A program made the translations under genes and the position numbers. A DNA stretch of 64,000 nucleotides, taken from assembly GCF_018688375.1 (NCBI RefSeq), contig NZ_CP061318.1:1842557-1906556 (forward strand). The letters run 5' to 3'. This document shows, in pieces, positions 3,651-46,817 of this stretch. This DNA comes from Polynucleobacter sp. AP-Ainpum-60-G11. Lineage in GTDB: Bacteria > Pseudomonadota > Gammaproteobacteria > Burkholderiales > Burkholderiaceae. Each line of letters opens with the position of its first letter. The stretch's first letter is position 1. The notes below the pieces were generated by a model, which had not been told where the DNA came from, made no database searches, and saw only the letters and a list, made by a program, of their open reading frames with translations.

Positions 3651-4319
3651 TTAAATCCCGTACTTCTCGCGATAGGCTTTTACTGCTGGTAAATAGTTTG
3701 TTAGATCGGCATTACTGGAGCCAGTTAAGAAAGCCATCAAGTCTGCCAAGTTTGCAATAGCCACTACCGGCAAGCCAAACTCTTGTTCAACAGCTTGTAC
3801 TGCGGACTTGTCGCCAATCTCTGTAGCGGTTCCTGACTTCTCCATACGATCCAAAGCAATTAATACCGCTGCTGGCTCAGCACCTGCATCGCGAATCAAC
3901 TTCACAGACTCGCGTACCGATGTCCCTGCCGAAATCACATCATCGATGATGACCACTTTGCCTTTAACTGGAGCGCCCACCAATGAGCCTCCCTCGCCAT
4001 GATCTTTGGCTTCCTTGCGATTGTAGGCATAAGGCACATTATGACCAGCATCAGCTAAAGCGATTGCAGTGGCAGCGGCCAAGGTGATGCCTTTATAAGC
4101 GGGGCCATAAAGCATGTCGTATTGCAGGCCAGACTCTTGCAAAGCCTTGGCGTAGTAACGACCCAAGGCGCTTAAGCGTGCGCCATCATTAAATCCACCT
4201 GCATTAAAGAAATAAGGAGAATGGCGTCCTGCTTTAGTTTTAAACTCCCCAAACGACAAAACATTTGCCTCTAAGGCAAATTGAATAAAGTTATCTTGAT
4301 TTGAATTTTTTGAGCTCAT
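3651..4319 (-). CDS. pyrE: Orotate phosphoribosyltransferase
   Basis: Joins orotate to PRPP to give orotidine 5'-monophosphate in pyrimidine synthesis. The PRPP-binding loop VVIIDDVISAGTS lies at 122-134 and the flexible catalytic loop with RKEAKDHGEGG at 101-111. At 222 residues it is typical of the enzyme. The ATG at 4319 is separated by only eight bases from the divergent xth start, so promoters of the two genes must overlap or lie within coding sequence. The 3' end converges with dapF across a 45-base gap. Confidence 0.96.
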   Translation of the reverse strand: MSSKNSNQDNFIQFALEANVLSFGEFKTKAGRHSPYFFNAGGFNDGARLSALGRYYAKALQESGLQYDMLYGPAYKGITLAAATAIALADAGHNVPYAYNRKEAKDHGEGGSLVGAPVKGKVVIIDDVISAGTSVRESVKLIRDAGAEPAAVLIALDRMEKSGTATEIGDKSAVQAVEQEFGLPVVAIANLADLMAFLTGSSNADLTNYLPAVKAYREKYGI

Positions 4320-4327
4320 AGGCCTAT

Positions 4328-5110
4328 ATGTTACGCATCATTTCTGCCAACCTCAACGGTATCCGCTCCGCGGTCAAAAAAGGCTTTATGCCATGGGTTG
4401 TGAAGCAAAAGGCGGACTTTGTCTGCATGCAGGAGCTCAAGGCTCAGCAAGACGATTTAGAAGATGCCATTCTCAATCCAGATGGTCTGCATGGCTTCTT
4501 TCACCATGCTGAGAAAAAGGGCTACAGCGGCTGCGGCATCTACACCCCACATAAGCCGGATGAGGTGCTCTACGGCTATGGCAATGAGGAGTTCGATGCC
4601 GAGGGTCGCTATGTCGAGGCTCGATTCAAAAAGCTCTCTGTCATCTCGGTGTATATGCCATCAGGCTCTAGCTCGCCAGAAAGGCAAGAGGCAAAGTATC
4701 GCTATCTCGATTCTTTTTTGCCACACCTAATTGACCTTAAGAAATCAGGGCGAGAAATTGTGCTGTGCGGCGACGTGAATATTGCCCACAATGAGATTGA
4801 CCTCAAAAACTGGAAAGGCAATCTCAAAAACTCAGGATTTTTACCAGAAGAGCGTGCCTGGCTAACAAACCTATTTAGTCAAGTTGGTTACGTAGACGTT
4901 TATAGAAAGCTAGAGCCTGAAGCGACTGATACCTGCTACACCTGGTGGAGTAATCGCGGTCAAGCGTATGCAAAGAACGTGGGCTGGCGCATTGACTATC
5001 ACATCACCACTCCGGGGATTGCAGCAAGCGCAAAGAATACTGCCATATATAAAGATGAACGCTTCTCAGACCACGCGCCACTGACAGTAGATTACGACTG
5101 GTCTATTTAG
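4328..5110 (+). CDS. xth: Exodeoxyribonuclease III-family AP endonuclease
   Basis: DNA-repair nuclease of the ExoIII/EEP family that cleaves at abasic sites and trims 3' blocks. Metal-binding E36 sits in MQELKAQ, the catalytic block GDVNIAHNEIDL near 140-155, and the terminal histidine in SDHAP at 247-251. Length (260) matches the family. The stop codon overlaps the convergent ampG-like gene by eight bases. Divergent from pyrE with an eight-base gap. Confidence 0.95.
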   Translation: MLRIISANLNGIRSAVKKGFMPWVVKQKADFVCMQELKAQQDDLEDAILNPDGLHGFFHHAEKKGYSGCGIYTPHKPDEVLYGYGNEEFDAEGRYVEARFKKLSVISVYMPSGSSSPERQEAKYRYLDSFLPHLIDLKKSGREIVLCGDVNIAHNEIDLKNWKGNLKNSGFLPEERAWLTNLFSQVGYVDVYRKLEPEATDTCYTWWSNRGQAYAKNVGWRIDYHITTPGIAASAKNTAIYKDERFSDHAPLTVDYDWSI

Positions 5111-11479: not shown

Positions 11480-12481
11480 TCAAGCTTTGCCAGCCTTTGC
11501 GCGAGGATGGGCTTTATCGTATGCCTGCGCTAGGTGCTGAAAATCGAGAGACGTATAAATCTGTGTACTAGCAATGCTGGCATGCCCCAGCATCTCCTGT
11601 ACTGCCCTCAAATCCTGAGAGGACTGTAAAACATGACTAGCGAAGCTATGACGCATCATGTGCGGGTGAACATGAGTTGGCAAACCAGCCCTCATTGCCA
11701 AAGTGCGTAAGCGCGCTTGTACTGTTCTTGGAGATAAACGAGCGCCGGTAGCCGAGATAAATAAGGCAATCGAGGCATCCGCATGCTCAGACTGATCTCG
11801 CAGCGCTCGCCAAATTTTGAGCGAGTTCATGGCCGGTCCACCGATGGGAACTGAGCGGCGTTTTCCGCCCTTCCCCAAAACCGTTACTTCTGCAGCATCC
11901 CAATCTAACCAGCCCGCTGACTCCTGTTGGCGATCTTTGCTTTGCAGCACATCGATACCTAAAAGCTCTGATAGTCGTAGACCTGATGAATACAGCAAAT
12001 CAATGATCGCCGCATCACGCACCGCCTCCAGATCTTTTTTTTCTTCAGCCTCTTTTACTGCTTGATTTACCAAAGAGAGTGCCTGCTCAACCGAGAGTGC
12101 CTTAGGCAAGGATTTCAGGCGCTTTGGCGCTTTCACATCATCCACTGGATTAGCAATCAAGTTTGCGGTAATTCGTCCCGCCTGGGAATCACGTCGCGCA
12201 TCTTTTTCAGTAAGCCAGTCATACCAGCCACGCCAAGCAGAAAGTGCTCTAGCAATAGTGCGTGATGACTTTCCTTTAGAGTGCAAACGACCAGCCCAGC
12301 GACGTACATGCGCATTCGTTACTTTTAACAACTCAACAGCATCATCTGTTGCCAACTCCTGAAGCTCGCCAAGATCCATGCGATACGCTTTGAGCGTATG
12401 GGGTGAGAGCTGCCTTAAAACATGCAGCTCGTGCAAATACTCTTGCACTAAGGGATGAAGGTCAACTGGTGCTTGGCTCAT
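11480..12481 (-). CDS. xerC: Tyrosine recombinase XerC
   Basis: Site-specific recombinase that with XerD resolves chromosome dimers at dif. All catalytic residues are present: R169 (SSGLRLSELL), K204, H274 and R277 (HPHMMRH), H300 and nucleophile Y309 (TQIYT). The N-terminal SAM-like DNA-binding domain occupies about 1-95. I start at ATG 12481 (333 residues, near family length); the open frame continues 55 codons upstream but that part overlaps the DUF484 gene and has no family similarity. The 20-base overlap with the DUF484 gene reproduces the common DUF484-xerC gene order. Confidence 0.94.
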   Translation of the reverse strand: MSQAPVDLHPLVQEYLHELHVLRQLSPHTLKAYRMDLGELQELATDDAVELLKVTNAHVRRWAGRLHSKGKSSRTIARALSAWRGWYDWLTEKDARRDSQAGRITANLIANPVDDVKAPKRLKSLPKALSVEQALSLVNQAVKEAEEKKDLEAVRDAAIIDLLYSSGLRLSELLGIDVLQSKDRQQESAGWLDWDAAEVTVLGKGGKRRSVPIGGPAMNSLKIWRALRDQSEHADASIALFISATGARLSPRTVQARLRTLAMRAGLPTHVHPHMMRHSFASHVLQSSQDLRAVQEMLGHASIASTQIYTSLDFQHLAQAYDKAHPRAKAGKA

Positions 12482-13136
12482 AAGCCTGGATACGATCCAA
12501 AGCTGCAGCAGTGAGTTCGGCAATCTGACGTAAATAGAATGCGCCCATGTCTGCCGTAAATCGGGTTTCATCCTTGCTTGCCAAAAGAAGCACTGCCGGC
12601 GACTGTACGGCGCCAATACTTTTACCCAATGGCAGGCCGATGGCAACCATGCTTTGCCATTCAGGGTCGATGCTCACTTGGGTTGCCAACAAATCCACAC
12701 TAGCCGCAGCTAGCTCTTTAGCAGAGCCACAGAGTGGCGTATCAATCCATGGGCCAAATGCGGTATTGGGCGATAGAAGTTGCGCTGACTCAACCTCAAA
12801 CACTTCTGCCAAGCCCGAGGTCACTGCCGACTCTACATCTGCTTTGGTATTGGCACGCATCAGGCGTAATAACCAAGCCACTAGGCTCTGTTGAGTTTTG
12901 TCATTGCGACTACCAAAGTGCAGCATCTCACTGAGACGACGATTAAGTTCTTGGTTCTGCGTACGCAATAAAGTCATCTGACGTTCTTGCAATGAAATAG
13001 CGCGATCTTCATGCGGATGCTTCAAGCGAATTTCATTTAAGAGATTGGCATAGCGCTCAAAGAAACCTGGGGTAGCACGCAACCACTCCGCCACCAATTC
13101 TTCTTGTTCAGCTTGCTTAGGATCAATTGCGCTCAT
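12462..13136 (-). CDS. DUF484 family protein (GAF-like)
   Basis: Conserved protein of unknown function found next to xerC across proteobacteria. The N-terminal part contains WLRATPGFFERY and a coiled segment ERQMTLLRTQNQELNRRL (about 51-68) typical of DUF484; the rest is GAF-like. At 224 residues it has usual length. The gene order (DUF484 then xerC, overlapping by 20 bases) suggests a function linked to chromosome segregation, but this is only association. Confidence 0.85.
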   Translation of the reverse strand: MSAIDPKQAEQEELVAEWLRATPGFFERYANLLNEIRLKHPHEDRAISLQERQMTLLRTQNQELNRRLSEMLHFGSRNDKTQQSLVAWLLRLMRANTKADVESAVTSGLAEVFEVESAQLLSPNTAFGPWIDTPLCGSAKELAAASVDLLATQVSIDPEWQSMVAIGLPLGKSIGAVQSPAVLLLASKDETRFTADMGAFYLRQIAELTAAALDRIQAYEPSTS

Positions 13137-38414: not shown

Positions 38415-38813
38415 CTACCCTGGCGGAAAATGCTCAATATGCACTTCGCCACGCCTCCCGAAATAACTGACATGCCTGCCAGCTATCCAAACCATATACC
38501 CCATGCAACCAGCAGCCATTGTTAGCCTCAAAAACTCGAGATATCTCAGCTGATCACTCTGCGCACCACGGATTGCCAAAATCACACCCTCTTCATTAAA
38601 CGATTCTGCAATATCTACCTGGGGCATCTCCATAGAAATACGCAGCGCTTCATTATTAGAAAGATAGTAGGTGCTTGACTGGTCTCGATAGTCGGCAAGG
38701 TAGGATTCAACTCCTACTCCAAGCAAGCGCTCCAAGACTTCTGGAAAGGTAAGTTCGCCGACATGCGATTGATGGGCACATTTTTCGATTGCTTCTTTAA
38801 TGCTGGGATTCAT
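38415..38813 (-). CDS. DUF1398 family protein
   Basis: The 132-residue product from ATG 38813, with a GGAGG site close upstream, matches DUF1398 (YbcV-like) in the LTFPEVLERLLGVGVESYLADY region. Upstream in-frame starts (38825, 38837) have no better site. Function unknown; the family is scattered in environmental bacteria and prophages. Confidence 0.75.
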   Translation of the reverse strand: MNPSIKEAIEKCAHQSHVGELTFPEVLERLLGVGVESYLADYRDQSSTYYLSNNEALRISMEMPQVDIAESFNEEGVILAIRGAQSDQLRYLEFLRLTMAAGCMGYMVWIAGRHVSYFGRRGEVHIEHFPPG

Positions 38814-38896
38814 AGACCTCCACATGTTGATGCCCAAAACAGCTGTTTTTACCCCTAACTTTTAATGAAAAATATCAACAAATTAATTATGGCGAA

Positions 38897-39118: not shown

Positions 39119-39802
39119 CTAAATGACCTCCAACACCGCACTCAAGGAATTACCTTCATAGTTTGGCTTCTCACCAATCTCTTCGTATGGATGTCCAAGA
39201 CGATTTACCCAAAATACATCGAAGCCAAACCACTTTGCCGCTAACGCATCCCAAGCATTGCTTGAAACAAATAAAACTTCTCCCTTCGCGACCGGAAATG
39301 TTTTTAATAGAAGCTCATAGGCCTGGGGAACTGTCTTAAATAGACGAATATCCTCCACCGTCACTACGCGGTCTAAGTAAGCCGTTAATCCATTGCTCTC
39401 CACTACAGTTGCCAGCATTTCTCTACTACCATTGGACAAAATTGCGGTAGATATTCCTTTATTTTTTATTGTCTCGAGAACACTCAAGCTATCTTTAAAA
39501 CCAGTAAGCTTGGCATACTGGTCCATCAATCTCTTCTCGTAGTCAGGAGTCAAATTTAAGTTCATGCGCTTACATACATAACGTAATGAGCGCAGAGTGA
39601 GCTCCCAAAAAGGAAGGTAGTACTTGCTGCCACCAGGACTTGGATCACTCATGGTAACCAGGCGGGTGTACTCAATTTGGCGGTCACGCCACATTAAGGC
39701 GAAGGCTTGACCATGCCCTGGAAACAATTCTTCTGCCAACTCTCCCATTGAATAGACATCAAATAATGTTCCGTAAGCATCAAAGGCAATAAGCTTATAC
39801 AT
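39119..39802 (-). CDS. Type II haloacid dehalogenase (HAD family)
   Basis: Catalytic D8 lies in FDAYGTLFDVYS, the signature of L-2-haloacid dehalogenases, with LSNGS and SSNAWDALAAKWFGF giving the later motifs. Length 227 is normal. These enzymes hydrolyse short halogenated acids such as chloroacetate. Whether it acts on haloacids in this organism is not shown. Divergent spacing of 15 bases from the DinB gene on the same strand suggests co-transcription. Confidence 0.88.
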   Translation of the reverse strand: MYKLIAFDAYGTLFDVYSMGELAEELFPGHGQAFALMWRDRQIEYTRLVTMSDPSPGGSKYYLPFWELTLRSLRYVCKRMNLNLTPDYEKRLMDQYAKLTGFKDSLSVLETIKNKGISTAILSNGSREMLATVVESNGLTAYLDRVVTVEDIRLFKTVPQAYELLLKTFPVAKGEVLFVSSNAWDALAAKWFGFDVFWVNRLGHPYEEIGEKPNYEGNSLSAVLEVI

Positions 39803-39817: not shown

Positions 39818-40372
39818 TTAATTTGTTTTTATATTGTCGTTTAAAACAATGTTTTGAGTCAGGCCTACCTCCTTGAAGCCATCACGCAAATACACTGGCA
39901 GATCGATTGATGGCGGCCTATAGCCGGACTGATAAAACATATCTCCAATGTGGCCACGATGAAATGCTTTGTGATTGCAGATATGCATCAAGATATCGCC
40001 CCTTGTCATTTCTCCAGCGCCACCATCCACAAAAGAAAATTGAACCATTTCATTTAGCAATAACTCGGTCATAGAGTCAGCATATTGGATATACCAATCG
40101 CCTGTTTCTTTTAATTTTTCACTGAGTAAACTCAGTGAATCAGGCAACTCGGTGGTACGAGACTTAAATCCATGATCTTGTCCAAGTAAATGCGCTTGCC
40201 ATATTTGATCAACAATCACTATGTGAGCCAAGGCAAAGGACATTCCCCCGAATGCCGCGGCACGCTGTTTAGTTACCTCATTAGATGGCAATTGAGCAAT
40301 CGCATCCAAAAGCATATTATTTGCCCACTTGTTATAGCGAACGAGCATTCGAATATTTCGAACGGCAGACAT
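39818..40372 (-). CDS. DinB family protein
   Basis: Four-helix-bundle family with possible metal-dependent hydrolase or transferase activity. The candidate metal ligands H50 (LAHIVIVDQ), H134 and H138 (HICNHKAFHRGH) are present. Length 184 is typical. It precedes the dehalogenase gene by 15 bases on the same strand. Function unknown. Confidence 0.82.
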   Translation of the reverse strand: MSAVRNIRMLVRYNKWANNMLLDAIAQLPSNEVTKQRAAAFGGMSFALAHIVIVDQIWQAHLLGQDHGFKSRTTELPDSLSLLSEKLKETGDWYIQYADSMTELLLNEMVQFSFVDGGAGEMTRGDILMHICNHKAFHRGHIGDMFYQSGYRPPSIDLPVYLRDGFKEVGLTQNIVLNDNIKTN

Positions 40373-40420
40373 ATTGCCCCCTCAAATAAGTAAGCACAGT
40401 CTATCAAATACATAACTAAC

Positions 40421-40471
40421 CGTAGGCAGCTTTTGGCTTCTTGGCGTCATCTATGCGGAATCAACTAGAGC
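40421..40471 (-). repeat. Degenerate tRNA-Phe 3'-end/terminator-like copy (copy 5)
   Basis: The segment shares CTTGGCGTC with copy 2 and GCGGAATCAACTAGAGC-like sequence with copy 3 (GCGGAATCGACTAGAGC), but the terminator hairpin has decayed. Placed at the outer end of the array. Confidence 0.5.
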
Positions 40472-40510
40472 AAAAGTATCGCCCTACATCAATTCAGCGA
40501 CAATAGAACA

Positions 40511-40705
40511 ATGAAGAAATTTGATGTGCTATCAATTGAACCTACAGACTTAGGCAATCACTGGGTAATCACCTATCGAATTGCCAATGGAGAAATTGAT
40601 AAACAATCCGTTATAGCAATAGACTCAAATGATGCCTTTATTGTGTTTCGCAACCTCATGATTAAAGAAGCCAAAGCCAAGGCCAAATCCAAGACGCCAA
40701 AATAA
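40511..40705 (+). CDS. Small protein of unknown function
   Basis: The 64-residue product has a short beta-rich part (VLSIEPTDLGNHWVITYRI) and a Lys/Ala-rich tail. It has no signal peptide. It is the only plus-strand gene in the tRNA-fragment array and its stop lies at the edge of copy 4. I do not recognise a family. Confidence 0.6.
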   Translation: MKKFDVLSIEPTDLGNHWVITYRIANGEIDKQSVIAIDSNDAFIVFRNLMIKEAKAKAKSKTPK

Positions 40706-40757
40706 AAACTGTCCGAAGATGATTTAGTACCCCTTGAGGGCGGCGGGAGGATTGACT
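40705..40757 (-). repeat. Degenerate tRNA-Phe 3'-end/terminator copy (copy 4)
   Basis: Alignment to the tRNA-Phe 3' end with its terminator shows roughly two thirds of positions shared: the terminator loop CCGAAG, the spacer, CTTG, GGCGGGAGGATTGAC. Hairpin pairing is poor. Confidence 0.5.
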
Positions 40758-40864
40758 CATGTCATCTCCGTTAGTGGATTAACAATTGATAGCAAATCCC
40801 ATAACTCCAAGCCTTATTCGAGACTACTTTGGCTGGCTTCAGAAAACTGGGGTGCCTAACGCTA

Positions 40865-41260
40865 TCAGACTAACTTGTACAGCAACCAACCCAGGTTTAA
40901 CAAAGCCAATGAAATTAGCGTTACAAATGTAAATTTCATTCCCAGTACGCGTTTACTAAAATCCGGGGGTGGCACATTAATACCAACAGCATGAATCAGG
41001 CGCCCAATAATTAGCGTAATTCCGGGAATAGCAACCAACCACCAAGGCGCTCCATTTAACTCAAGACAGGCAATTAAGATAATTCCGAAAGGAACGTATT
41101 CAGCAAAGTTGCCTTGAGCGCGGATAGCTCTCTCCAAGTCTTCATGGCCACCACTTCCTAGGCCAACCTGATTCTTTCTTCTGAGACCAATAACAGCAAA
41201 GGAGAGCTTTACAAAGATGATGGTTAAAACAGCGGTAATGATTGAGGCAACTATTAGCAT
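40865..41260 (-). CDS. MAPEG family membrane protein
   Basis: Membrane-Associated Protein in Eicosanoid and Glutathione metabolism family. The 131-residue protein has three to four membrane segments and the motif RAIRAQGNFAEYVPFGIILI. Bacterial members are often glutathione-dependent detoxifiers, but this is only family inference. It is one segment of the tRNA-fragment array. Confidence 0.84.
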   Translation of the reverse strand: MLIVASIITAVLTIIFVKLSFAVIGLRRKNQVGLGSGGHEDLERAIRAQGNFAEYVPFGIILIACLELNGAPWWLVAIPGITLIIGRLIHAVGINVPPPDFSKRVLGMKFTFVTLISLALLNLGWLLYKLV

Positions 41261-41296
41261 TTAGGGCTCCCAGGACAATTCGTAGATATTAATCAG

Positions 41297-41351
41297 AAAA
41301 AAATCACCCGAAGGTGATTCTGGTATTTCTTGGTGGCCGGGGCGGAATCGA
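41297..41351 (-). repeat. Partial tRNA-Phe 3' end plus terminator (copy 3)
   Basis: The last 22 bases of tRNA-Phe recur at 41331-41351 with one base deleted, followed (minus direction) by the spacer and a hairpin 41297-41321. The hairpin carries a compensating change (TCACC/GGTGA in place of CCACC/GGTGG), so pairing is preserved. Confidence 0.82.
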
Positions 41352-41373
41352 CTAGAGCTGAGAATGCTCAATA

Positions 41374-42480
41374 TCATGCCCAAAATTCTTTAATTTTTAA
41401 TGCCTCTGCTTTTGCTCGATCATATCCAGTTCGCAATGCGCCTTCGATCTGCTTTGGATCTAACAAATTTACGCCCGGAGGAGTGCCAGCAACAATCCAC
41501 TTTACTTTTGTGCCAGTTGCTTCTACATCCTTAATATTTTGACTAATAGGGTGCGGAATTGTTGTGAGAATCGCTCCAGCAACACCATTAGTTAATGTAA
41601 TGATCAAAGCTCTTTTTGAGCCGGCCACCAAATCCACATGTGCTGGATTAGAGCAAATGCCCCCATCCATGACATAACGCTGACCCAATAATGTTGGCCC
41701 GGCAACCCCGGGCAAAGAGCTACTTGCTGCCGCACCATGCGCCAAGGGAATATTATTTTTTCTAGCAGTTTTCTGACTAACGACAATACGCTCACCCGTG
41801 TAGCAGTCTACCCCTGTTGTATGCATTCGGCTAGCTGGCCAATCTTTTTTGCTATCGCCCGTTAATAGTGCCGCCAATTTTTCGATGTTAGTGCTGTTCA
41901 ATTTATTATCAGCGGCTAAAGCGGCTGCGCCAATAATTCTGCGCGTTTCAATACTGCCATCGGTAGCGCTCATATTCACTTTATCAGCCCTCATTTGACT
42001 AATATTGGGGGTCGCCACGGGTGCCATCTTAGAAAAAATTTCTGGGAACTTGCCAAAAAAATCAAACTCTGCCCGCAAACGGGCAAACTCGCCGGAGAGC
42101 AATGACGAGCCCATATAGGAACCAGCGGAAGTGCCAACCACCATTTCAGGAAGCCGTGTCATGTCTAGGCCCGCCTCCATGAGTCCATGAAAAAATCCGC
42201 AATACCATGCGATGTAGTATTCACCGCCACCACCAAGCACCATAGTTCGATCCAATCCTTTTGCCAAATTGGAAACGGTTGGTTTTGTTGCGATAGGAAT
42301 TGCTAAACCATCATCGGCAAATAGTCTTTTAGAAATCTCATCTGCCTTTAATTCGATATTAGATTTTCGAGGCATTGTCTGCGCGAAGGCAGATTCAAGC
42401 CCAGGTCCAGCGGTTGTGGTGAGAGCAACGGCACCAACGGTAGAGGTTTTTAAGAAATTACGGCGCGATTGTTCTGTCAT
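41374..42480 (-). CDS. Patatin-like phospholipase with Tat signal
   Basis: Serine lipase of the patatin type. The nucleophile S118 lies in GTSAG, the oxyanion loop in LGGGGE (82-87) and the catalytic Asp in DGG near the C-terminal third. The N-terminus SRRNFLK is a Tat motif, so the enzyme is exported folded. ATG 42480 is used; the frame is open 19 codons upstream without similarity. It is one segment of the tRNA-fragment array. Confidence 0.86.
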   Translation of the reverse strand: MTEQSRRNFLKTSTVGAVALTTTAGPGLESAFAQTMPRKSNIELKADEISKRLFADDGLAIPIATKPTVSNLAKGLDRTMVLGGGGEYYIAWYCGFFHGLMEAGLDMTRLPEMVVGTSAGSYMGSSLLSGEFARLRAEFDFFGKFPEIFSKMAPVATPNISQMRADKVNMSATDGSIETRRIIGAAALAADNKLNSTNIEKLAALLTGDSKKDWPASRMHTTGVDCYTGERIVVSQKTARKNNIPLAHGAAASSSLPGVAGPTLLGQRYVMDGGICSNPAHVDLVAGSKRALIITLTNGVAGAILTTIPHPISQNIKDVEATGTKVKWIVAGTPPGVNLLDPKQIEGALRTGYDRAKAEALKIKEFWA

Positions 42481-42529
42481 ATTAGATCCATGTGATTTCC
42501 ACTGATTTATAACAGATCCTGGCAATGAA

Positions 42530-42582
42530 AAAACCACCCGAAGATGGTTTTGGTATTTCTTGGCGTCCCGGGGCAGGATTGG
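42530..42582 (-). repeat. Partial tRNA-Phe 3' end plus terminator (copy 2)
   Basis: Terminator and spacer differ from those of tRNA-Phe at one base in 33; the tRNA-like end (42561-42582) differs at six of 22 bases. The hairpin change leaves a G:U pair in minus-strand RNA. It begins seven bases after the stop of the DUF1275 gene. Confidence 0.85.
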
Positions 42583-42589
42583 CCAGAGC

Positions 42590-43351
42590 CTAAGGCATCC
42601 GAATCTTCAAGGCAATTCTGATATCTCTAAAAATCTGTAAGCCGGCTATCAAAAGAAGTGAGAGCGATAAAGGCAGCACTGCTATGTAACCAACCTTCTT
42701 GAAGCTAACTGCCCCAATGATCCCCCCAATTAAAAACATTCCAAAAATGAATAAATGGGTTTTTAACTTCCCCCTATTAGCTTTTACATACCCAGTCACA
42801 TTGGCCTCTTGTGACTTGTTCCAATAAATTAATTTGCCTAGCTCAATTCCAATATCAGTAATTACACCCGTCATATGGGTCGTTCTAATCTCTGCCCTAG
42901 ATGCCTTCGTAACAATTGCATTTTGAAGGCCCATTACAAAACATAAGAGGAGAGCAATAGCTGGAACTGTTAAGGGCAAATACAGATTCAGGTTAGCGCC
43001 AACCAAACCAAATACCAACAGTAAGATGGCCTCAACCAGTAAAGGCAAAGCAAACTCGCTATGAATTTTTCTTCTATGCCCCCAGTTAACAATAATGGCA
43101 GTCGTCGCTGCGCCAAATAGAAATGAGAGCAAGAGAGAGATCCCACCTAAAACGGAAATAAAGTCATTCAGGGCCAGATCATCGCCAATTGCTGAAATAA
43201 TTCCACTCATATGGGATGTATATCTGGCAATAGCCAGAAATCCACCGGCATTTACCGCTCCTGCTACAAATGCCATATAAGCACCCAACTGAATATTGGT
43301 TTTGTGGGAACGCTGGGTGCTGGTTAAAAGCTGAATAAACTTAATTGGCAT
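42590..43351 (-). CDS. DUF1275 (YoaK-like) membrane protein
   Basis: Integral membrane protein of 253 residues with about six hydrophobic segments and the family motif AGAVNAGGFLAIARYTSHMSG (about 31-51). Function unknown. It fills one segment of the tRNA-fragment array. Confidence 0.83.
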   Translation of the reverse strand: MPIKFIQLLTSTQRSHKTNIQLGAYMAFVAGAVNAGGFLAIARYTSHMSGIISAIGDDLALNDFISVLGGISLLLSFLFGAATTAIIVNWGHRRKIHSEFALPLLVEAILLLVFGLVGANLNLYLPLTVPAIALLLCFVMGLQNAIVTKASRAEIRTTHMTGVITDIGIELGKLIYWNKSQEANVTGYVKANRGKLKTHLFIFGMFLIGGIIGAVSFKKVGYIAVLPLSLSLLLIAGLQIFRDIRIALKIRMP

Positions 43352-43407
43352 TGAGAATACATTCTACGACCAAGCGTTATTCGCCCATTTTTTGGCCGTA
43401 GTAAATG

Positions 43408-43461
43408 AAAAAACCACCCGAAGGTGGTTTATAGAATCTTGGTGGCCCGGGGCGGAATCGA
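43408..43461 (-). repeat. Partial tRNA-Phe 3' end plus terminator (copy 1)
   Basis: The last 22 bases of tRNA-Phe (43440-43461) and the 20-base terminator core (43408-43427) are identical to the real gene's, separated by a changed spacer. It is the least diverged copy and the nearest to the intact tRNA. Confidence 0.9.
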
Positions 43462-43487
43462 CCAAGACTCAGGATACCCGGCTATAC

Positions 43488-43829
43488 CTATGACTTCCTT
43501 AGGCTTGTCTCAATACAGTCCGACAAGAATTGAACATATTTGTAGGCTAATTTTGTTGGTACTACAAACTTTTTACGCCCATCCGCCTTATCGGCAACTA
43601 GCTTTAGATAGCCAAGAACAGCAAGATTTTTAATTCTGCCGTGTAAGGTTGCTTGAGATCCAAACTGGCTTAAGTGAATCAAATCGCCCACTAAAAGGGT
43701 TTGACCTTTATCTGCTGCCAACAATACATATTCAAGCAACTGGATTTCAGTTAAATCAAGCGCTCGGCCAGGATTGGCTCTGCCCAAGGCATCAATCGTA
43801 TTTAAAAAACGGATATATAAATTATTCAT
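43488..43829 (-). CDS. Winged-helix (MarR-like) transcription factor
   Basis: The 113-residue protein has a helix-turn-helix (LVGDLIHLSQFGSQATLHGRI) and wing (ADKADGRKKFVVPT) typical of MarR-type regulators. Its start overlaps the stop of the membrane-protein gene by four bases, so it may regulate or be coupled to that protein. Ligand unknown. Confidence 0.78.
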   Translation of the reverse strand: MNNLYIRFLNTIDALGRANPGRALDLTEIQLLEYVLLAADKGQTLLVGDLIHLSQFGSQATLHGRIKNLAVLGYLKLVADKADGRKKFVVPTKLAYKYVQFLSDCIETSLRKS

Positions 43830-44374
43830 AGGCGGAGTTTACTCTTGCGCAAATTAGCAATCCACTTCGCCAAAGAGATGATGAGCAAAATTCCAGTTAC
43901 ATCGCCTAGGAACATCACCCCAACACCGCTCCACAAATCTTGGGACTGACCAGCCAAGTAAATGATTGATTGCGTAACCAGGCTATTGAGAACCGCATAA
44001 CCTAGAGAGATGGCAAATAATGAAGATAGAGTTAAGTTCGATAACTCGCCATCTAAGTGAAACTTATCAGAACAAATTTTGGAAACAAGCCAAGGCACCC
44101 CAGCGCTGCCAATGGATAACAGAAAGACTAGACTAAATTGTCCAGGGAATGGGTACATTACCCCCCAAATATTAGAGACAATAAAGATAGCCAATGCCCC
44201 GATGGGCCCGGTAATTAGCGTCATCAATATTTTGACCCCACTTGGCAAGTGAACTAAATGTGCCCCGGGAGTCAAATACAGAAAATCTGTACATAAGTTA
44301 TTTGTGAAATAGAACAGGCCATACCCAAGAGTAAGGATTGCCAATAATTTAAAGTTTTGAAGAAGTGGGCTCAT
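43826..44374 (-). CDS. Multipass membrane protein, MASE1-like
   Basis: From ATG 44374 the 182-residue protein has about five to six hydrophobic segments with [18 protein letters not shown], which resembles MASE1 sensory membrane domains. It lacks any signalling output domain. The frame is open 35 codons upstream but that part runs through the tRNA terminator and tRNA-Phe. First gene of the array, just after the tRNA terminator. Confidence 0.7.
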
Positions 44375-44411
44375 AACGGTTGTAATACTAATTGAATACT
44401 TCTTGGGCAAT

Positions 44412-44435
44412 AAAAAACCACCCGAAGGTGGTTTT
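44412..44435 (-). terminator. Terminator of tRNA-Phe
   Basis: On the minus strand CCACC, loop TTCG, GGTGG, then TTTTTT, directly after the tRNA. Its core recurs in the partial copies. Confidence 0.88.
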
Positions 44436-44444
44436 GGTATTTCT

Positions 44445-44520
44445 TGGTGGCCCGGGGCGGAATCGAACCACCGACACAAGGATTTTCAATCCTCTGCTCT
44501 ACCGACTGAGCTACCAGGCC
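44445..44520 (-). tRNA. tRNA-Phe (GAA)
   Basis: Seventy-six bases fold as a complete tRNA: acceptor pairing of GGCCTGG with CCGGGCC, D-arm with GCTC/GAGC, anticodon loop TTGAAAA with anticodon GAA, T-arm with TTCGATT, and encoded CCA end. It is the parent of the downstream partial copies. Confidence 0.98.
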
Positions 44521-44612: not shown

Positions 44613-46817
44613 CTAGCTGGGCTTAACTGCAAATTTAGCTCTAAAAGCATGTAATTTTTTATAGCTATCAAGCAGACGATGGTGTCGGTCTAGGCCCTCT
44701 AATTTCATACTTGTGGGAGTCAAGCCATAGAAGCGAACTGTACCGTCTATCGAACCCATGACGGCATCCATTCTGTCCTTGCCAAACATCCGGCGGAGAT
44801 TGACCATGAAGTCATTCAACTCCAAGCCGTCATCCAGCACAATCTCTAACACTGCGTTTAATGCCTGATAAAACAATTTACGCTCGACAGTATTGTCGTT
44901 GTATTGAAGAAAAGCACCGACAAGCTCATGGGCATCTTCAAATTGCTTTAAAGCGAGATGAATAAGTAGCTTCAACTCTAATACTGTTAGCCGACCCCAT
45001 GGCGTGTTCTCATCAAACTCAATGCCAATCAATGTAGCAATATCACCGTACTCATCTAACTCGTTATTTTCTAAACGCTCAAGTAATGCAGCCAAGCTTG
45101 CATCGTCCAAGTTTGGTAGATTCAAAATATCGGCACGGAACAATAGTGCTTTATTAGTGTTATCCCAAACTAAATCTTCGATTGGATAAACCTCAGAATA
45201 TCCTGGCACCAAGATTCGACATGCGATTGCACCTAGTTGGTCGTACACCGCAACGTAAGCTTCTTTACCCAGGGATTCCAGAATATTAAATAAAGTAGCG
45301 GATTCTTGAGCATTCGAGTTTTCGCCTTCACCAGAGAAATCCCACTCAACAAATTCGTAATCTGATTTAGCGCTAAAGAATCGCCATGAAACAATGCCGC
45401 TGGAATCAATAAAATGCTCAACAAAATTATTTGGCTCGGTCACTGCCTCACTTGCAAATGTGGGTGGGGGCAAATCATTCAGCCCCTCTAAACTGCGGCC
45501 CTGAAGCAACTCCGTCAAGCTCCGCTCCAGCGCTACCTCTAAGCTAGGGTGAGCACCAAATGATGCAAATACTCCACCTGTTCGTGGATTCATCAGAGTA
45601 ACGCACATCACTGGATAAACACCACCAAGTGATGCATCCTTCACCAACACCGGGAATCCCCGCTCCTCAAGACTCTGAATACCTGCCAAAATGCTGGGGT
45701 ATTTGGCGAGCACTGTCTGTGGCACATCCGGTAAAGCAATTTCACCCTCAATAATTTCACGTTTAACTGCACGCTCGAAAATTTCAGAGAGGCATTGCAC
45801 TTGAGCTTCAGCAAGCGTGTTGCCAGCACTCATGCCATTGCTGACATACAAATTCTCTATCAAGTTGGATGGGAAATAAACAATCTCGCCATCTGACTGG
45901 CGAACATAGGGCAAGGAACAAATACCGCGCTCCATATTTCCTGAATTGGTATCGAATAAATGTGAGCCACGCAGCTCCCCATCCGGGTTAAAAATCTCTA
46001 GGCAATACTCATCTAGAATTTCTTTAGGAATTGAATCTTTAGGGCCCGGCTTGAACCAGCGCTCATTTGGATAATGCACAAAGCTGGCATTGGCAATATC
46101 TTCACCCCAGAATGCGCCAGCATAAAAATGATTATTGCTCAGTCGCTCGATATACTCACCCAAAGCTGAGGCTAGGGCACTTTCTTTGCTTGAGCCCTTG
46201 CCATTGGTAAAACACATTGGCGAGTGTGCATCACGAATATGCAAAGACCATACGTGAGGAATCAGGTTGCGCCATGAGGCGATTTCGATCTTTATCCCCA
46301 GGTTAGCCAGCATACTAGTCATATTTTCAATAGTTTGCTCTAAGGGCAAGTCTTTACCAGGAATATACGTACTCGCATCCGAAGCGGGCTTTAAAGTCAG
46401 CAAAGTCTGTGCATCAGCATCTAAGTTCTTCACTTCTTCAATAACAAACTCGGGGCCAGCTTGTACGACTTTTTTTACCGTACAGCGTTCAATAGAGCGC
46501 AATATACCCTGACGATCATTGGCTGAAATATCTTCTGGTAATTCAACCTGAATTTTGAAAATCTGTTGATAGCGGTTTTCTGGATCAACAATATTGTTTT
46601 GTGAAAGACGAATATTCTCAGTAGAGATATTGCGTGTATCGCAATACAGCTTTACAAAATAAGCTGCGCACAAGGCCGATGAAGCTAAAAAATAATCAAA
46701 AGGTCCTGGGGCTGAACCATCGCCTTTATAGCGAATGGGCTGATCAGCAATCACCGTGAAGTCATCGAACTTGGCTTCAAGACGAAACTTATCGAGAAAG
46801 TGAACCTTTATTTCCAT
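44613..46817 (-). CDS. OsmC-like domain fused to YcaO-domain protein
   Basis: Residues about 1-150 form an OsmC-like fold (LDKFRLEAKFDDF, ALCAAYFVKLYCD). Residues about 160-580 form a YcaO domain with the ATP-binding pattern SAGNTLAEAQVQCLSEIFERA. The rest is helical, probably repeat-like. YcaO domains activate amide backbones with ATP; in the E. coli-type group the partner is thought to modify ribosomal protein S12. No substrate peptide or partner gene is visible nearby. At 734 residues it is longer than plain YcaO. Confidence 0.87.
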   Translation of the reverse strand: MEIKVHFLDKFRLEAKFDDFTVIADQPIRYKGDGSAPGPFDYFLASSALCAAYFVKLYCDTRNISTENIRLSQNNIVDPENRYQQIFKIQVELPEDISANDRQGILRSIERCTVKKVVQAGPEFVIEEVKNLDADAQTLLTLKPASDASTYIPGKDLPLEQTIENMTSMLANLGIKIEIASWRNLIPHVWSLHIRDAHSPMCFTNGKGSSKESALASALGEYIERLSNNHFYAGAFWGEDIANASFVHYPNERWFKPGPKDSIPKEILDEYCLEIFNPDGELRGSHLFDTNSGNMERGICSLPYVRQSDGEIVYFPSNLIENLYVSNGMSAGNTLAEAQVQCLSEIFERAVKREIIEGEIALPDVPQTVLAKYPSILAGIQSLEERGFPVLVKDASLGGVYPVMCVTLMNPRTGGVFASFGAHPSLEVALERSLTELLQGRSLEGLNDLPPPTFASEAVTEPNNFVEHFIDSSGIVSWRFFSAKSDYEFVEWDFSGEGENSNAQESATLFNILESLGKEAYVAVYDQLGAIACRILVPGYSEVYPIEDLVWDNTNKALLFRADILNLPNLDDASLAALLERLENNELDEYGDIATLIGIEFDENTPWGRLTVLELKLLIHLALKQFEDAHELVGAFLQYNDNTVERKLFYQALNAVLEIVLDDGLELNDFMVNLRRMFGKDRMDAVMGSIDGTVRFYGLTPTSMKLEGLDRHHRLLDSYKKLHAFRAKFAVKPS

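Follow-up and report, generated by a model that had tools for sequence, protein, structure and literature searches.

The window analysed here, the last 64 kb of the 1.9-Mb one-contig genome of Polynucleobacter sp. AP-Ainpum-60-G11, contains a gene for phenylalanine transfer RNA (tRNA-Phe) followed by a row of small genes, which are separated from each other by copies of the 3' end of the tRNA. A preliminary description of this locus, made from the sequence alone, listed three clear copies, carrying 0, 6 and 1 changes and each followed by a terminator, and we confirm all three, with CCA ends at 43440, 42561 and 41330 (Table 1). The repeat is longer than its tRNA part by ~24 bases upstream: it is a 46-bp site, in which a conserved left arm of ~20-24 bp, absent from tRNA-Phe, precedes the tRNA-shared core. 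The genes between these sites resemble cassettes, and we use that word, and "attachment site" for the repeat, throughout; G, L and C numbers refer to genomes, loci and cassette families.

Table 1. Features of the tRNA-Phe array (positions in the window)
Feature	Position	Strand	Evidence or remark
tRNA-Phe, anchor of the array and presumed entry site	44445..44520	-	ARAGORN; Rfam RF00005
Cassette 1, 1005 bp, attachment site at its end	43440..44444	-	family C52, single member at DNA level
Terminator of cassette 1	near 44411-44434	-	
Open reading frame (ORF) of cassette 1, 182 aa	43826-44374	-	without Pfam family
ORF of cassette 1, 113 aa	43488-43829	-	weak MarR match, below cut-off
Attachment site 1	43440..43485	-	left arm 43462-43485; core 43440-43461, identical to tRNA; 61.3 bits
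Terminator after attachment site 1	near 43408-43432	-	
Cassette 2, 879 bp, DUF1275 protein at 42590-43351	42561..43439	-	PF06912, 5e-39
Attachment site 2	42561..42606	-	core with 6 substitutions; 36.5 bits
Cassette 3, 1231 bp, patatin-like phospholipase at 41374-42480	41330..42560	-	PF01734, 4e-20
Attachment site 3	41330..41375	-	core with one deletion; 25.0 bits
Cassette 4, MAPEG-family protein at 40865-41260	40735..41329	-	PF01124, 1e-20
Decayed attachment site 4 with terminator	40705..40757	-	alignment to relatives' sites
Cassette 5, ORF at 40511-40705 (64 aa, opposite to tRNA)	40443..40734	+	without Pfam family
Decayed attachment site 5 with terminator	40421..40471	-	alignment to G010 site
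DinB-family protein	39818..40372	-	PF05163
HAD hydrolase	39119..39802	-	relatives in 41 genomes
DUF1398 protein	38415..38837	-	relative of cassette family C8

We compared the tRNA-Phe regions of 81 loci, i.e., the window and 80 fetched relatives, the latter picked by hand from 151 genus genomes searched, with preference for long contigs and with one genome per species. Extensions were read for ten loci, and five contigs (L092, L141, L150, L157 and L158) end early. The tRNA-Phe genes of all 81 loci have 0-1 mismatches to the window copy. A position-weight model of the site was built from 152 relatives' sites with at most 4 mismatches in the first 60 loci, leaving the window out, and sites were then counted at 14 bits in all 81 loci, the counts for relatives not being independent of training. 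On 2 Mb of simulated sequence all scores stay below 1 bit, and in the window, where the three sites were scored by this window-free model, the next best place on the same strand reaches -16.7 bits.

At least one further site lies behind tRNA-Phe, within the stretch read, in 66 of the 81 genomes, and the copies fall into two classes. The short class (n=280) consists of a left arm, with a consensus of about AGgaTnAggCATCCTcGGCCCTGG, and a core that corresponds to the last 22-26 bases of tRNA-Phe, from the T-loop to CCA. The first part of this left arm is itself a copy of the tRNA-Phe anticodon stem (AGGAT/ATCCT) with a different loop, so that, as judged from the sequence, the 46-bp mimic may be described as an anticodon-stem copy joined to the T-loop/acceptor half. 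The long class (n=39, accepted at up to 6 mismatches across the last 45 tRNA bases) keeps ~45 tRNA bases from the anticodon loop onward and ends longer segments, with a median of 4.5 kb. The preliminary account, which was right about the repeats and the units, missed both the left arm and these longer islands, some of which bear recombinases. Most sites of both classes are followed by AGAA and a terminator; a terminator-like signal is found within 60 nt of 254/319 sites, compared to 9/319 random places. Many cassettes have identical cores, and many have the terminator in common as well.

The sites cut the arrays into 319 segments with a median length of 1124 bp, 198 of them under 1.5 kb; the short-class segments have a median of 1021.5 bp and a maximum of 9462 bp. 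By mechanical ORF calls, exactly one ORF of at least 70 aa is present in 156 of the 255 segments up to 2.5 kb, and the longest ORF runs along the tRNA direction in 196/245. The last ORF on the tRNA strand, counted in one segment per family, has its stop codon 35-60 nt before CCA, i.e., at the left arm, in 86 of 121 cases. Genes with no relationship to each other have this ~20-bp left arm in common, shortly after their stop codons. At the other end, the tRNA is followed by a terminator, and in 14 of the 139 main ORFs that start with ATG the distance from CCA to the start is 60 nt at most, so that a promoter would have hardly any space. The 319 segments form 200 families, of which 52 are found in two or more genomes. 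Some families have nearly constant length, such as C3 (1228-1231 bp in six genomes), C8 (516-517 bp in five) and C9 (1329-1330 bp in five), and others are variable, such as C4 (1833-2631 bp) and C6 (1520-2238 bp). We performed a Pfam scan of 50 proteins in all, 45 of them from cassettes and from the window surroundings, with YcaO, HAD and a few flanking proteins as non-cassette members. The families found include patatin, DUF1275, MAPEG, DinB, BrnT toxin, Phd antitoxin, a lipid A acyltransferase family, major facilitator, GNAT acetyltransferases, carbonic anhydrase, major intrinsic protein, bicarbonate transporter and the BLUF light sensor; several proteins belong to no family.

The cassettes are exchanged between species as whole units. 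Relatives do not preserve the same genes in the same order: among pairs of genomes sharing a cassette, the upstream neighbour is the same in 4 and different in 200, and the downstream neighbour is the same in 4 and different in 164, pairs adjoining the tRNA or the array end being omitted; 45 of the 52 shared families occupy more than one rank. The same cassettes thus stand among different neighbours, bounded at tRNA-like sites, in agreement with the earlier proposal of unit-by-unit insertion at the tRNA 3' end. For example, family C9 is 98-100% identical in five genomes, where it adjoins tRNA-Phe in two and three different units in the others, and C5 is 100% identical over 551 bp between G013 and G010 with an upstream flank at 73%, a sign that it was transferred recently. 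The upstream flank is comparable in 37 of 309 cassette pairs, the other 272 having no flank alignment; cassette identity exceeds that of the flank by more than 3 points in 27 of these 37 pairs, and the reverse is seen in 1.

The place where identity switches was examined in pairs at least 80% identical inside the unit (70 pairs in 23 families, and 118 pairs in 36 families). At the left border, the identity in excess of that between unrelated pairs amounts to 0.84-0.91 within the cassette, to 0.77-0.86 in the terminator (positions +5 to +36), and to nil at the arm before the core. The corresponding values at the right border are 0.90 within the cassette, 0.63-0.78 for the left arm, and at most 0.03 from +5 onward. 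Thus the left arm (-49 to -25) moves with the upstream gene and the terminator with the downstream gene, and the switch occurs between -24 and +4, a stretch of ~29 bp that is essentially the one shared with tRNA-Phe. In C9, a T-loop variant is common to three of the five copies, and a single terminator type is found at the opposite end of all five; in those cases the switch therefore lies on the right-hand side of the T-loop. Had the anticodon loop been the crossover point, the tRNA would retain the variant of the left arm; in the loci read, it shows 0-1 mismatches. Sites also differ along the arrays. In 44 loci with at least three sites, the first short-class site scores a median of 64.1 bits and the last one 40.0 bits (p = 2.5e-6), so the preliminary claim of decay with distance from the tRNA stands for the most distal sites. 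This fits addition at the tRNA with old units decaying.

In the window, each of sites 1-3 is followed by a terminator of the same kind. Relatives of both cassette 1 proteins occur together in segments of five genomes (G012, G072, G033, G014 and G026), with only 27-30% identity for the 182-aa protein. The DUF1275 cassette belongs to family C16, which measures 872-881 bp in G035, G116 and the window; the patatin cassette is a member of C3, whose neighbours differ among its six genomes, the window included, and the stop codon of its gene sits directly at the left arm of site 3. The MAPEG unit is found in G008 as a 519-bp site-bounded cassette with an ending site of 40.5 bits. In G010 the 64-residue ORF forms a site-bounded unit of 294 bp, and in G031 it belongs to the first segment. 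The two decayed copies of the preliminary description are not recognised by the site model (best scores of -43.1 bits in 40690-40770 and -25.2 bits in 40410-40485), and they are recovered by alignment with relatives' sites: the first one aligns with the end site of the G008 MAPEG cassette and with the 80.5-bit G010 site before the 64-residue unit, and the second one with the 27.1-bit G010 site behind the 64-residue ORF. The window cassettes are older: the patatin unit is 75-82% identical to other copies, and its single pair with a flank value has no excess (75.3 vs 75.4).

Beyond 40421 the array probably continues, because the DinB and DUF1398 proteins have cassette relatives. A DinB relative with 85% identity is a site-bounded cassette in G078 (4076-4707), and five other DinB matches fall outside site-bounded segments; on this comparison, the DinB gene is probably a cassette of greater age, with a site that has decayed beyond recognition. 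Family C8, to which DUF1398 is related, has members in five other genomes. The HAD gene is probably a conserved gene of the chromosome and would mark the far side of the array, because the nine best listed of its relatives lie outside site-bounded segments. Directly upstream of tRNA-Phe, a YcaO/OsmC fusion protein is encoded at 44613-46817.

The preliminary description saw no integrase in the segments and likened them to gene cassettes, and the larger sample agrees: a tblastn search with 37 Polynucleobacter proteins from PF00589 matches, many of which resemble XerC or XerD, detects a tyrosine recombinase in 0/280 short-class segments. The same search is positive in 10 of 39 long-class segments, eight of which contain both an integrase like that of L044 and a small recombinase like that of L041. 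The small recombinase, a short protein examined through its copy in the tRNA-Lys island of the window's own genome, weakly matches models of XerA, XerD and tyrosine-type DNA invertases, all below curated cut-offs, and also matches the phage integrase family phrog_216. An arm, TCTATCGGAGGATATT, is common to long-class elements without recombinase matches and to the recombinase-bearing island L109, which makes movement in trans likely for the former. Serine recombinases (PF00239) have matches in 11/30 genomes, none at an array by position, and none of 10 proteins scanned from the larger Alcaligenaceae segments (two loci) matches a recombinase family. Turning to possible carriers, two exact site patterns have 0 matches in IMG/VR, and a single query with one 131-bp site stretch has no match among PLSDB plasmids. 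The enzyme of the short class may belong to the resident genome, to an island, or to a helper that does not persist.

We interpret the array as a row of site-specific gene cassettes that use tRNA-Phe as their entry site and are moved in trans by an enzyme encoded elsewhere, and give this reading a probability of roughly 0.8. A cassette would consist of a terminator, usually one gene or a coupled pair mostly directed along the tRNA, and then the 46-bp site behind the stop. In this scheme the cassette, probably as a circle, would recombine within the shared core with tRNA-Phe or with another copy of the core. The tRNA would be rebuilt upon entry, its 3' end being supplied anew by the core and its displaced terminator being replaced by that of the cassette; repeated insertion would produce a row in which the unit next to the tRNA is the newest. 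Both the circular intermediate and the recombinase acting in trans are inferred. Candidate enzymes come from the longer islands at this tRNA, namely their integrase or their small second tyrosine recombinase of ~190-230 aa; further candidates would be a ~430-aa PF00589 protein present in several genomes and an enzyme on a helper that does not stay.

Several observations weigh against this interpretation. Neither an enzyme nor a circle nor an excision has been seen. Array-bearing G036, with two sites, has two PF00589 matches only, both in Xer-like groups, and the number of PF00589 matches does not correlate significantly with array size (rho 0.23, p 0.16, 39 genomes). There is no site behind tRNA-Phe in 15/81 genomes, one of them read for 4 kb only, and one of these array-less genomes (G061) has sites elsewhere. 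Neither core type fits cleanly for 33/280 sites, and the longest ORF is opposite to the tRNA in 49/245 segments. The polarity is modest, with a Spearman rho of -0.21 over all sites, and ranks 1-3 are alike. Finally, the C1 copy in G059 (L143) has a terminator unlike that of six others, as if replaced.

A further point on that side is that homologous exchange of repeat-flanked DNA could yield many of the same patterns. Such exchange after uptake of foreign DNA, with the 22-70 bp shared by neighbouring sites as homology arms, would require no special recombinase, and none tied to the short cassettes was found; the identical cores and common terminators of many cassettes would suit it as well. 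We nevertheless consider it unlikely, given the position of the switch at -24 to +4: even alike terminators stay with the downstream gene, and their excess identity in +5 to +36, 0.77-0.86 at the left border, is 0.02-0.03 at the right one. Nor does homologous exchange have any need of the left arm found behind the stops of unrelated genes, or account for the most distal sites being the most decayed. If the segments were instead remnants of successive integrase-bearing islands, each eroded to one gene, the islands with tyrosine recombinases within the same arrays would fit, and families such as C4 and C6 do vary in length. The near-equal lengths of C3, C8 and C9 in unrelated arrays reject independent erosion for shared families, and the short class has an arm of its own, whereas the long class keeps 45 tRNA bases, so that we regard this origin as most improbable.

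There are two other alternatives. XerC and XerD of the host, which move some vibrio phages and islands, could move the cassettes too. Among the matches listed, a XerD-like one (the label is ours) is present in 40/40 genomes searched and a XerC-like one in at least 39/40, the array-less G053 having none listed; they are also present in array-bearing genomes with few other candidates, such as G024, where five sites are accompanied by PF00589 matches at the XerD-like and XerC-like places and in one 421-aa protein only. In the window itself, a XerC-like protein is encoded at 11480-12646, ~32 kb beyond tRNA-Phe, with 315.8 bits against a curated cut-off of 335. By eye, the site does not resemble the dif consensus, and genomes devoid of sites, such as G105 and G124, have both proteins, which leaves a role of the Xer pair quite unlikely. 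It is less probable still that the site acts as a folded single strand or RNA, that is, as a tRNA-like double hairpin ending in CCA, either in the manner of attC or via a reverse transcriptase. The consensus does fold into two hairpins (-18.3 kcal/mol), the first repeating the anticodon stem, and in the main site type this hairpin has a Watson-Crick fraction of 0.645 compared to 0.599 in shuffles, of which 1/2000 is as high, and to 0.21-0.33 for slid partners. There is, however, no pairing excess in the second site type (284/2000 shuffles as high) or in the second hairpin (1041/2000), and the two attC boxes do not occur together at any site (see below).

A 30-base form of the site allowing up to 3 mismatches is found in 26 of 299 family genomes, all of them within the 40 of the own genus (0/259 others), and at up to 2 mismatches in 6/399 order genomes, five of the own genus. 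An exact scan of GTDB returned 45 stretches, from 27 Polynucleobacter, 10 uncultured betaproteobacteria, 5 Burkholderiaceae bins and 3 others, namely Zwartia panacis KCTC42751, an Alcaligenaceae bin and a bin called Ferrovum. In the Zwartia and Alcaligenaceae loci the left arm is recognisable and the best sites reach 54.8-56.8 bits, with different terminators.

Related arrangements are seen at other places and at another tRNA. Displaced 5' halves of tRNA-Phe (bases 1-38 or 1-42, 98-100% identical), left behind by islands on the opposite side of the gene, lie ~6.9-17.8 kb upstream in four of the six loci examined (L175, L176, L177 and L179, from G018, G090, G070 and G035, respectively), with integrase-like and small recombinase-like genes between them and tRNA-Phe, so that rebuilding of this tRNA seems to occur from its 5' as well as its 3' end. 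Rows of sites away from tRNA-Phe are found in L045 (own genome, 1146-1155 kb) and in L161-L164, where they start at 5'-truncated or diverged tRNA copies; ahead of the tRNA copy, L045 and L161 look alike by eye. The own genome also has a tRNA-Lys island (L048, 3282-11201) with both recombinase types, ACR3 and ArsI/CadI arsenic genes, and a displaced tRNA-Lys 3' end with its terminator. A mirror image of the array is observed at tRNA-Lys in L258-L262, from 1.3-Mb genomes of the same order, probably Methylopumilus: a promoter-like stretch with the 5' half of tRNA-Lys recurs upstream at 0.77-1.9 kb, and once at 6.2 kb. In these Methylopumilus-like genomes a 766-768 bp unit occurs in several contexts, also away from tRNA-Lys. 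The mirror-image units suggest that tRNA "repair kits" may be a general way of building cassettes.

To our knowledge, only integrons are well established as a system for gathering single genes in exchangeable form. Integrons and clusters of attC sites lacking integron integrases (CALIN) resemble the arrays described here in having one-gene cassettes, a short site behind the stop, a presumed entry site at one end, and toxin-antitoxin cargo, and here, too, there are rows of mostly single-ORF cassettes, each ending in a site. Unlike integrons, the entry site here is a tRNA gene, the units bring terminators, and there are no attC boxes: the R'' (RYYYAAC) and R' (GTTRRRY) boxes occur together in 0/280 sites (75 nt), as in 0 random places, and singly in 2 and 19 sites, compared to 13 and 25 random places. 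No IntI (TIGR02249) above the cut-off is found in the 26 genomes with sites, all of which have weaker matches, as is expected for related recombinases. The array thus works like an integron cassette array and is not one by the tests of attC boxes and integrase. There is somewhat less than an even chance that we are dealing with a second cassette system, unrelated to integrons, with entry at tRNA-Phe, a 46-bp tRNA-Phe mimic as its site, a dedicated recombinase encoded elsewhere that would capture single genes and move them, and a pool of cassettes extending through the genus and perhaps into neighbouring families. If so, it would explain the large shared gene pool in abundant small-genomed freshwater bacteria, provide a ready list of exchanged genes, and pose a testable question as to the enzyme that builds cassettes from a tRNA half. 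It would also illustrate a way for mobile DNA to do no damage to an essential tRNA gene that it enters, namely by carrying along a terminator for that gene.

Minimal mobile elements of Neisseria are likewise single-gene units exchanged at a fixed chromosomal place; they rely on homologous recombination between conserved flanking genes and are not known to have an attachment site or array. We found no description of an array of this kind in Polynucleobacter in the open-licence literature; Hoetzinger and Hahn have reportedly worked on genomic islands of this genus. Tycheposons, reportedly described by Hackl et al. in 2023, share with the present arrays the insertion at tRNA genes, the occurrence in streamlined aquatic bacteria, and the variable cargo, and the longer islands of our arrays come close to them. 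Tycheposons measure 4-200 kb (PMC10872708), in contrast to the ~1.0 kb median of the short class, in which no tyrosine recombinase was found.

Also among the closest known systems are the additive flexible genomic islands (fGI) at tRNA genes, such as fGI1 of Alteromonas (PMC4119200), fGI1 of Actinomarinales (PMC7771536) and fGI-2 of Methylopumilus (PMC10872708), where the islands are given as 330 bp to 42 kb. In the parts of these papers that we consulted, additive islands consist, as here, of cassettes lined up next to a tRNA gene, with repeated tRNA fragments as markers, and the rows vary between strains; at our locus, a tRNA and its recurring fragments delimit segments that differ between related genomes, in this case of different species. 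Beyond what those parts report, the Polynucleobacter arrays have a dedicated site with a non-tRNA arm, about one gene and a terminator per unit, and units that are exchanged sharply across species; in the short units no recombinase was found. Additive islands anchored at tRNA genes are thus known, and, as measured against those accounts, the one-gene, shared-site form looks like a new version of such islands.

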